Of a DNA stretch of 6,494 nucleotides, positions 8 to 6,396 are shown piece by piece; position 1 is the stretch's first letter; each line of letters begins with the position of its first letter. Source of the stretch: an uncultured Clostridia bacterium (GTDB lineage: Bacteria > Bacillota > Clostridia > Oscillospirales > CAG-272); NCBI GenBank assembly GCA_947306035.1, contig CAMZFG010000055.1, forward strand, positions 1 to 6,494, given 5' to 3'. The position numbers and the translations under genes are program-made. The notes beneath the pieces are model-generated. The model was not told where the DNA came from and made no database searches. It saw only the letters and a program-made list of their open reading frames with translations.

Positions 8-118
8 GCGATATTGTTCTCGTCCCGCAAGGGACATATCGCGCCGCAGGCATATCGCGTCCCACAGGGACATATCGCAAATTCCGTCAGGAATTTATAT
101 CGCTGCGGCTGCGCCGCA
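8..118. repeat. Tandem array of five hairpins separated by ATATCGC linkers
   Basis: On the + strand five self-complementary units follow each other. They are GTCCC-gcaa-GGGAC (22-35), GCC-gca-GGC (43-51), GTCCC-aca-GGGAC (59-71), AAATTCC-gtca-GGAATTT (79-96) and TGCGGC-tgc-GCCGCA (104-118). Between consecutive units lies exactly the same 7 bases, ATATCGC (36-42, 52-58, 72-78, 97-103). An inverted copy of the linker, GCGATAT, stands at 8-14 before the first hairpin and could pair with 36-42. Arm sequence and length (3-7 bp) change from unit to unit but complementarity is always perfect, while the linker does not vary. The array lies just beyond the hypA stop codon. I recall similar short-palindrome arrays in intergenic DNA of gut Clostridia but cannot verify a named family. 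The structure is seen directly; its function is unknown. Confidence 0.85.
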
Positions 119-135
119 ACGGGCCGCGTTTTTTT
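105..135 (+). terminator. Possible rightward intrinsic terminator at the array end
   Basis: GCGGC (105-109) can pair with GCCGC (123-127), one base before a run of seven T (129-135). This pairing competes with the last array hairpin, where 104-109 pairs with 113-118. The T-run lies on the + strand, so it would stop rightward transcription arriving from a gene left of the window, convergent with hypA. On the - strand no T-run follows the hairpins, so it is not an obvious terminator for the hyp operon. The T-run partly overlaps the hypA stop codon (134-136). Confidence 0.4.
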
Positions 136-505
136 ATGCGTTTTGCGGCGGGTCGGTGTTCAGTTCCGCCTCGATCTGCTTGATCGAAAAGGCGTTGCCC
201 TGCAACAGGTACGTCTCGGTGCTGCCGCACAGGGGGCAGGTCTTGCCGTTCGGCACGGTCTTGTAGGTGCCCTCGCACGCGGTGCAGAAGGTGACGGCCT
301 CGACCGTTTCGATATACAGCGGCGCGCCCCGGACCAACTCGTCCTTTTCGCGAAAATAGTTCCAGCAGTCGACCAGTTGTTCGGTCACGACGCCCGACAC
401 TTCGCCCACTTCCAGCGTCACGGAGCCGATGCGGCGCACGTCATGTTCCTTCGCCACGTCGTGCAGCGTTTGTATGACGTGTTTGACGATGCCGAGTTCA
501 TGCAT
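134..505 (-). CDS. hypA: Hydrogenase/nickel-enzyme maturation factor HypA
   Basis: This is a nickel metallochaperone of 123 residues, within the usual range for HypA (about 115-120). It hands nickel to a target apo-enzyme together with HypB, in the cytoplasm. The protein starts Met-His-Glu, the N-terminal nickel site of the family (Met1, His2, Glu3). A structural zinc site of two CxxC pairs is visible at Cys74/Cys77 and Cys90/Cys93. The family segment GEVSGVV lies at residues 34-40. The ATG at 503-505 is chosen because it puts His at position 2; an in-frame GTG nine bases upstream would bury that nickel site. The start overlaps the end of the upstream hypB by 8 bases, so translation is probably coupled. 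It is the last gene of the operon and the hairpin array begins 15 bases after its stop codon. The family assignment is firm. The target enzyme (hydrogenase, urease or another nickel enzyme) cannot be told from the window. Confidence 0.93.
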   Translation of the reverse strand: MHELGIVKHVIQTLHDVAKEHDVRRIGSVTLEVGEVSGVVTEQLVDCWNYFREKDELVRGAPLYIETVEAVTFCTACEGTYKTVPNGKTCPLCGSTETYLLQGNAFSIKQIEAELNTDPPQNA

Positions 506-1163
506 GGCGGCCACGCTTCCGCTCTGCCAGCAGCCAGTCCTCCCACGCCCGCATGCCCTCGCCCGTTTTGGCCGAGACGGGGAAAACGGCGATGCCGGGG
601 TTCAAGGCGCGCGCGCGTCGGGTGACGGCCGCAAAATCAAAGTCGAAATAGGGCGCGGCGTCCGTTTTGGTCACGACGAGCGCGTCGCTTTTCTGAAACA
701 TCAACGGATATTTCAGGGGCTTGTCGTCGCCCTCCGGCACGCTCAAGATCATGACGTTGACGTGCGCGCCCGTGTCGAACTCGGCGGGGCAGATGAGGTT
801 GCCCACGTTCTCGAGAAAAACGACGTCCAGGTCGCCCGTCGGCATACCGGCAAGGCCCGCGCGCGTCATGCCCGCGTCCATGTGGCACATGCCGTCGGTG
901 TGCAGTTGTATGCTCGCGGCGCCGAGCGCGGCGATCTTTTTTGCGTCCACGTCGGAGGCGATATCCGCCTCCATCACGCCGATGCGCACGCGGCCGATAA
1001 GGTCGCTGACGGTGCGGGAGATCAGCGTGGTCTTGCCGCTGCCGGGCGCACTCGTCAGGTTGACGAGAAAGAGCCCGCGCGCCGTCAGTTCGCGGCGAAG
1101 TTCTGCCGCGTCGCGGTCGTTGGAAGCGGTGACCGTTTCTTTGAGTTCGATGGTCCGGATCAC
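498..1163 (-). CDS. hypB: Nickel-insertion GTPase HypB, second (promoter-distal) copy
   Basis: A SIMIBI-class GTPase of 221 residues that uses GTP hydrolysis to drive nickel transfer with HypA. Visible motifs are the P-loop SAPGSGKT (38-45), VMEADI with DVDAKK (63-76), the metal-site pair Cys93-His94 in GMCHMDA, ENVGNLICP with Cys125 (118-126), TKTD (165-168) as the guanine-specificity motif in place of NKxD, and SAKTGEG (197-203). The N-terminal Cys-rich nickel site of E. coli HypB and the His-rich stretch of some homologues are absent. The start is taken as GTG (1161-1163), which overlaps the TGA of the upstream hypB and follows an AGGGGG-like ribosome site seven bases away. The open frame continues upstream to 1475, but only as antiparallel overlap inside the other hypB, and family homology starts here. 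It is a clear paralogue of the adjacent hypB, by eye about half identical. Both copies keep the P-loop and the Cys/His ligands, so both look active. Confidence 0.93.
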   Translation of the reverse strand: MIRTIELKETVTASNDRDAAELRRELTARGLFLVNLTSAPGSGKTTLISRTVSDLIGRVRIGVMEADIASDVDAKKIAALGAASIQLHTDGMCHMDAGMTRAGLAGMPTGDLDVVFLENVGNLICPAEFDTGAHVNVMILSVPEGDDKPLKYPLMFQKSDALVVTKTDAAPYFDFDFAAVTRRARALNPGIAVFPVSAKTGEGMRAWEDWLLAERKRGRHA

Positions 1164-6020: not shown

Positions 6021-6136
6021 CATCAAAATCTCTTCCGCCATGCGGCGTTGCTCCTCGGCTACTCCCTCGACGTAGAAAACTACGCCGTCGGGAGGGCGCC
6101 TGCGGTGCGCCTTGCCTGGCGAAAGATCTTTTGATG
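6021..6136. repeat. Long foldback element with nested hairpins
   Basis: The outer arms 6021-6039 (CATCAAAATCTCTTCCGCC) and 6118-6136 (GGCGAAAGATCTTTTGATG) are inverted repeats with a few differences. Inside, 6062-6075 and 6080-6094 form a near-perfect arm pair closing on GTAG-AAAA-CTAC (6072-6083). A separate GGCGC/GCGCC hairpin lies at 6095-6111. The whole could fold as a branched, cruciform-like structure of about 116 bases. Its left arm contains the 29-base unit that recurs at 6368. No open frame or transposase is inside. It may be a MITE-like or REP-like element. Confidence 0.65.
6023..6051 (+). repeat. 29-base repeat unit, copy 1
   Basis: TCAAAA, three variable bases (TCT), then CTTCCGCCATGCGGCGTTGC. 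The last 20 bases (6032-6051) are identical to 6377-6396. The unit is the left arm and inner flank of the foldback at 6021-6136. Confidence 0.85.
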
Positions 6137-6367: not shown

Positions 6368-6396
6368 TCAAAAGCACTTCCGCCATGCGGCGTTGC
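6368..6396 (+). repeat. 29-base repeat unit, copy 2
   Basis: TCAAAA, variable GCA, then CTTCCGCCATGCGGCGTTGC. It differs from copy 1 (6023-6051) only within the three variable bases. It is in the same orientation, 345 bases downstream. The sequence diverges after the shared unit, and any right arm would lie beyond the window. Confidence 0.85.

Follow-up and report, generated by a model that had tools for sequence, protein, structure and literature searches.

A joint-linked hairpin array at a Clostridia contig end, its Gut-1 relatives and a probable mirror-image element

What kind of element keeps a row of hairpins perfectly paired while the seven bases between them never change? This question is raised by the start of a contig from an uncultured Clostridia bacterium. 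The window, by which we mean the whole stretch of DNA analysed, is the complete 6494-base contig C55 of a draft genome of 1.22 Mb that is 70% complete. Sequence inspection reveals five perfectly paired hairpins and four identical ATATCGC joints at positions 22-118. An earlier note on this DNA had described them as structures whose stems are free to vary between fixed joints, and had considered a stabilising device for the hyp operon, a protein-binding platform or a mobile satellite. Its overall interpretation is partly supported by our analysis: the structure and joint, their recurrence and their dispersal hold, and the hyp device does not. It had overlooked the second, mirror-image half, the kinship with Gut-1, the orientation towards the 3' ends of genes and the opposite joint at 8-14.

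The array and the genes beside it

The features are listed below; A-half and B-half denote the two halves of complete elements found in relatives.

1-7, no strand: probably the opening bases of the B-half's first hairpin, the rest being cut off by the contig end; position taken from comparison with complete elements
8-14, minus strand: joint in the opposite orientation (GCGATAT on the plus strand), probably the mirror half's first joint, judging from complete elements
15-21, no strand: centre, separating the two halves; comparison of the sequence with relatives shows no closing strand of the GGATTTATATC type that many of them have
22-35, no strand: hairpin 1, GTCCC-GCAA-GGGAC, 5 bp, loop GCAA, perfectly paired
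36-42, plus strand: joint ATATCGC, exact match
43-51, no strand: hairpin 2, GCC-GCA-GGC, 3 bp, loop GCA, perfectly paired
52-58, plus strand: joint ATATCGC, exact match
59-71, no strand: hairpin 3, GTCCC-ACA-GGGAC, 5 bp, loop ACA, perfectly paired
72-78, plus strand: joint ATATCGC, exact match
79-96, no strand: hairpin 4, AAATTCC-GTCA-GGAATTT, 7 bp, loop GTCA, perfectly paired, terminal hairpin of the A-half, with similar hairpins in many relatives
97-103, plus strand: joint ATATCGC, exact match, outermost of the A-half
104-118, no strand: outer hairpin TGCGGC-TGC-GCCGCA, 6 bp, perfectly paired, between the A-half and the hypA stop codon
31-105, minus strand: match to the Gut-1 (RF01706) covariance model with E 5.5e-4 and 38.4 bits, short of the gathering score, which is 50
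36-103, minus strand: match to model R1, 72.3 bits, E 1.3e-15 (the window is not among the 14 training elements)
134-514, minus strand: hypA (PF01155), its 3' end facing the A-half

The five hairpins hold 26 base pairs in total, which none of 200,000 within-segment letter shuffles reached (maximum 16), and this bears out the description of perfect hairpins with identical joints. ATATCGC occurs six times in the window on both strands together, against 0.59 expected, and no shuffle out of 200 attained this count. The claim that all five stems differ fails for hairpins 1 and 3, whose arms are identical (GTCCC/GGGAC) and whose loops alone are different, and stands for the others. The regular spacing is all that would be explained by clustering through chance, by a CRISPR array or by a plain tandem repeat; all three are refuted by the shuffles and by the palindromic inter-joint segments, which also agree with the earlier remark that the array is unlike CRISPR. 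A long conserved repeat is lacking and the same architecture is found in other genomes, leaving such readings a negligible probability. Folding of the cut array gives moderate signals, with z = -3.3 as RNA (minus strand, 1-160; reached by 0 of 200 shuffles) and z = -2.6 as DNA (plus strand, 1-132; 2 of 200).

Past the hypA stop codon (134-136) the outer hairpin comes first, and the outermost joint (97-103) follows at a distance of 30 nt from that codon. The minus strand carries hypA, two CobW/HypB-type GTPases and a 940-residue iron-sulphur flavoprotein, and the plus strand a phosphofructokinase. The two GTPase genes stand in tandem at 498-1855, between hypA and the flavoprotein gene, and TTCCGCCATGCGGCGTTGC occurs twice downstream of the phosphofructokinase gene, at 6033-6051 and 6378-6396. 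Searches of 20 further genomes from this genus found no hypA, and a comparison of the hyp locus between species thus gave no result; the contig may therefore be foreign (transferred) or mis-binned. This doubt about the contig weakens statements about the host and leaves the family assignment of the element untouched.

Mirror-image halves and the relation to Gut-1

The opposite-orientation GCGATAT at 8-14 turned out to be the key to the architecture of the element. Complete elements consist of GCGATAT-joined hairpins, a centre, and then ATATCGC-joined hairpins. One of the two halves, the A-half, has AAATCCC-GGGATTT as its terminal hairpin in the GCGATAT type. An arm of the terminal hairpin recurs in the centre, a sign by which the A side can be assigned in 50 of 62 complete elements. 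Some hairpins of the B-half contain GA mismatch pairs (cGAacaaagtGAg, judged by eye). Since the array of the window sits at the very end of the contig, base 1 being the contig start, its left side is cut. The joint at 8-14 is the sole opposite one of the array, and beyond it the contig ends; a second half with the reverse-complement joint is present in most relatives tested (29 of 33). We infer that one half is present in the window together with the opening bases of its partner, the remainder of which would lie beyond the contig end.

Rfam models at the gathering threshold give no match in the window. At a relaxed threshold, the Gut-1 model matches A-halves, including that of the window with the 38.4 bits listed above against the cut-off of 50. 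This match covers model positions 1-77 of 77, and the three hairpins come in the same order. The likeness thus extends to hairpin order, approximate lengths and the joining of three hairpins by one repeated 7-base motif; the differences are that the Gut-1 model spans the A-half only and that the window has the joint GCGAUAU in place of the GUGAAAU of Gut-1. Joints of related elements are GTGATAT, ATGATAT, GTTATAT and ATGAAAT. Because it falls below the Rfam cut-off, we class the window as a relative of Gut-1 and not a member, and one of its own relatives (L285) scores 52.0 bits, above that cut-off. Two further elements above the cut-off lie in the genome of the window, one on C168 with the joint GTGAAAT, cut by the contig end, and one on C27 with the joint GTTATAT and the mirrored ATATAAC.

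A Gut-1 search of 291 genomes across the class gave matches in 49, of which 33 were above the cut-off, and none in 242; these counts are lower bounds owing to strict filters and 15 candidates per genome. A single match, below the cut-off, was found in 14 control genomes. We also built a model, R1, from 14 GCGATAT elements that did not include the window; it holds 12 base pairs and is therefore largely a sequence model. In its search the window ranked third of 52 matches, and Gut-1 elements of the GTGAAAT type were recovered as well. We conclude that the two belong to a single family whose joints are exchangeable.

In the part of the 2010 discovery paper that we consulted (PMC2864571), Gut-1 is marked as a certain RNA, not cis-regulatory, and listed as "Human gut only", that is, as an RNA of human gut sequences. 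This was the only paper that our literature search found to name Gut-1, an RNA for which we found no assigned function; the consulted text describes neither a B-half nor high copy number nor presence and absence. That Gut-1 is one half of a larger element is new. Among the 33 Gut-1 hits with at least 100 nt downstream, to which the test was confined, the reverse complement of the A joint occurs at least twice downstream in 29 and the joint itself in one. By source, the recurrence holds for 19 of 22 class-wide hits, picked before the other half was inspected, and for 10 of the 11 others, several of which had been picked as complete elements. From the class-wide search 23 of 27 sites were used, three B-half matches and one wrongly placed site being dropped; from the relatives 12 of 16 rows were used, leaving out the window, one L188 duplicate and two opposite-strand B-half matches.

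The two halves are predicted to fold into a fishbone, in which the left GCGATAT joints would pair with the right ATATCGC joints and the hairpins would stand opposite each other in between. For the complete L188 element each joint is predicted to pair with its mirror, with z = -8.6 as RNA and z = -10.3 as DNA (0 of 200 shuffles each). The 44 of 62 complete elements that have at least three joints on each side and at most 320 bases all gave z below -3 (median -5.2, 60 shuffles each). Part of this depth is owed to the search itself, whose criteria were hairpins and joints that are reverse complements. In their minimum-energy folds at least one left-right joint helix forms in 40 of the 44, at least two in 35 and none in four; some of the helices are out of register. 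Left and right joints are complementary at 6.77 of 7 positions, against 6.75 when right joints are exchanged within a type, a value as high as the observed one arising in 34 of 500 permutations; in the 44 complete elements, within-type permutation thus found no covariation of individual left-right pairs. As the exchange barely lowers the complementarity, the joints change together, and the data do not demonstrate selection on single joint pairs. Two other sources were set aside: the complementarity across joint types (6.77 vs 5.97), which is built in by the search, and alignment A1, from which no covariation count was taken because its later hairpins are misaligned.

Stem exchange, copy number and dispersal

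The earlier note held that structure is kept, that stem sequence is free and that the joint is fixed, and six relatives confirm it. From these genomes, 62 arrays were chosen by exact joints alone, and 136 distinct inter-joint segments were long enough to test. Their four end bases pair at 3.72 of 4 positions, compared with 1.53 when the arms are exchanged (maximum 1.79 of 1000 exchanges), and the tested segments start with 43 different 4-mers. Three-base loops are GNA in 39 of 72 cases. Orthologous elements of G118 and G454 illustrate the exchange directly: the stems have been replaced with pairing and joints kept, as in TCCC-TCC-GGGA versus ACGC-TTTG-GCGT, and the G454 element has one B hairpin fewer than that of G118. 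The array is not unique and pairing has not decayed, although joints do shift together from one lineage to the next.

Several genomes of Clostridia hold multiple copies of related arrays. In the genome of the window itself, a pattern of two ATATCGC joints matches three times at the array and once elsewhere (a single pair on C50). Across the 146 genomes of the family, this two-joint pattern has at least one match in 122, mostly 0 to 5 per strand, compared with 0 to 2 for the reversed control. The highest counts, the three-joint figures including overlapping matches, are:

G118: 69 two-joint matches, 40 three-joint matches
G011: 64 and 26
G014: 60 and 35
G003: 31 and 14
G142: 29 and 11
G010: 24 and 12
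G112: 5 three-joint matches

The seven genomes of the three-joint search were picked for high two-joint counts, and the reversed-pattern control gave 0 in all seven. Other genomes of the class carry ATATCAC or ATATCAT joints instead; in the class-wide search, AT-rich genomes whose matches were no commoner than in the control were not counted as carriers. Two genomes (G247 and G225) hold ATATCGC and ATATCAC joints in separate arrays.

A three-joint scan of genome contigs returned at least 119 stretches, many of them in MAGs labelled Clostridia, Oscillospiraceae or Ruminococcus; part of these loci were seen through a later filter only or not at all. Among the matches listed, those from other phyla are mostly unrelated repeats or coding sequence. 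A Sporolactobacillus record (L075) has 11 three-joint matches, and the listed ones, at a regular 60-base spacing, look like an unrelated tandem repeat. The arrays collected, 16 loci judged unrelated being left out, comprise 103 "half" arrays with one joint kind and 68 complete ones, out of 171. At L192, L216, L281, L282 and L283, similar copies of the element or of a half lie about 1.1-1.7 kb apart and look like local duplication. A phage origin was considered and rejected: a viral scan gave at least 119 stretches, and among those listed, inspected together with two further ones, the viral look-alikes are L324, L395 and possibly L421. L395 is a viral-collection contig with several arrays of this kind.

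The "mobile satellite" of the earlier note finds support in copies at other loci of the same genome and in orthologous sites that differ in whether they hold the element. At one such site, bounded by a shared pair of genes, an element is present in G118 and G454 and a single terminator-like hairpin takes its place in G003, the unaligned bases between the gene matches numbering 57 in G003 versus 262 in G118. Stretches of about 95 bases from G118 are up to 93% alike at another locus of that genome. Behind a tRNA-Met gene, G283 carries the element, its terminator hairpin being part of the repeated unit, and G233 shows a plain terminator, followed after about 100 bp by what may be a decayed B-half; given this possible remnant, loss is as likely as gain at the tRNA-Met site.

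Position behind terminators and candidate explanations

The A-end of the element mostly faces the 3' end of a gene or tRNA. Among 47 complete elements, a neighbour within 200 nt presents its 3' end to the A-end in 28 and its 5' end in 4, with no neighbour in 15 (one-sided binomial, about 1e-5). The B-end faces 12 3' ends and 7 5' ends and has no neighbour in 28. These 47 were taken from 62 complete elements by leaving out 12 with an unclear A side, one duplicate and two from long stretches, and they are not a random sample, many loci having come from strong Gut-1 hits. A preliminary tally based on rough reading frames and taken at the two ends of each of 113 arrays (20 loci judged unrelated and 4 duplicates left out) gave 78 facing 3' ends versus 45 facing 5' ends; better gene calls and the distinction of A and B sharpened the result. 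tRNA genes make up 14 of the 28 3' ends at A-ends. Because relatives lie behind various genes and tRNAs, a role specific to the hyp operon is not supported. Directly before the A-half stands a T-tract in 22 of 23 class-wide Gut-1 hits and in 2 of 12 others; by eye, these T-tracts are the ends of terminator hairpins.

This placement can be read in terms of RNA. Read-through past the terminator would give a hairpin-rich 3' RNA or a small RNA that stabilises transcripts or binds a protein, much as the Gut-1 authors proposed in the consulted part of PMC2864571. The certain-RNA rating given there, the CUUCGG loops of the Gut-1 consensus and the A-ends behind gene and tRNA 3' ends are consistent with such an RNA. 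However, the start of the A-half right after a T-tract implies that there would mostly be no transcription from that side, an objection that applies to the class-wide hits and hardly to the others. In addition, the GNA loops lie on the opposite strand in the mirror half, so that one transcript would hold both loop kinds, and presence differs between sister species. We therefore regard a structured RNA as possible and on balance improbable.

That tRNA genes supply half of the 28 3' ends at A-ends also fits a platform for DNA topology or protein binding. Gyrase is bound by the BIMEs of E. coli, and cruciform-prone DNA behind busy transcription units might likewise attract gyrase or some other protein of the host. 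The count of gaps between genes leans the same way in one genome: in three contigs of G118 (380 kb), an element occupies 5 of 26 convergent gaps versus 3 of 140 tandem and 1 of 32 divergent ones. In three contigs of G361 (388 kb), where convergent gaps stand out less clearly, the figures are 1 of 21, 4 of 152 and 0 of 21; these are small numbers from gene calls made with a simple codon model. The reversed-sequence control placed no element in any of the six contigs. Against such a platform stand a patchy distribution within one genus (69 pattern hits in G118 versus 3 in G071) and the lack of a known binding protein, and we consider it rather unlikely, somewhat more so than the RNA.

Among mobile elements, REP sequences and REPINs moved by RAYT (Y1) transposases are the closest precedent. 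They share extragenic palindromes, inverted pairs of hairpins, many copies and predicted single-strand folding with the arrays described here, according to the consulted parts of PMC3116915 and PMC3733652. The differences are that each half contains several hairpins here, that the joint ATATCGC is conserved instead of the stems, which vary, and that the GTAG or CGTC tag described in the consulted part of PMC3733652 is missing. The Y1 transposase (PF01797) has clear matches in the carriers G010, G142 and G122 and weak ones in G003 and G011, and none in the genome of the window (G000), G118, G014 or G112, although in draft genomes absence is no proof. We hence give a REPIN of this kind a slim chance.

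A second precedent comes from the terminators themselves. Group IIC introns target terminators, and elements of the GTGAAAT type lie right behind terminator-like hairpins. Rfam scans of 15 relatives and the window gave no group II intron match at the element, and RVT_1 had a match in 5 of 16 carriers and none in 11 (G000 being outside this sample, and draft genomes may miss genes). A reverse transcriptase was for that reason rejected as a necessary helper. A gene between paired copies was likewise rejected as an autonomous version, as the reading frames at six loci differ and look ordinary by eye.

Based on the above data, we propose that the array is the A-half of a dispersed element related to Gut-1, likely non-autonomous mobile DNA whose fishbone would be read by a putative enzyme and which would be set behind gene and tRNA terminators. 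With Y1 and reverse transcriptase matches both patchy, movement would fall to another enzyme, and we put the chances of this proposal at about even. Two mirror-image halves would fold into the fishbone, and the element may move as a folded single strand. The putative enzyme would recognise the joint together with the hairpin shape and set the element down behind the terminator of a gene or tRNA. Two further points count against a mobile reading: arrays of this kind would also be maintained if they served the host, and the window is without the closing strand found in many relatives. A wider claim, to which we lend a little less credence, is that Gut-1 is not a free-standing RNA but one side of a fishbone built from two mirror-image combs of hairpins, representing a novel class of Clostridia mobile DNA with interchangeable stems, the joint as its sole sequence tag and a fixed polarity behind terminators. 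Its copying would depend on an enzyme outside the known machineries of Y1 and reverse transcriptase.

If Gut-1 is part of a dispersed element with mirror-image halves, an entry now catalogued as noncoding RNA turns into DNA of a mobile or structural kind and, if true, this would be a clear case of a repeat defined by shape and a 7-base joint and not by stem sequence. The element also gives a signature for finding the enzyme that handles it. Lastly, a conserved GCATCTAAACCATTCGGCTCTTCCA, or a close variant, lies just outside the B-half at L492, L494, L495, L496, L502 and L504, in several families; it ends in CCA like a tRNA, although it could be matched to none, and is often followed by another terminator-like hairpin.
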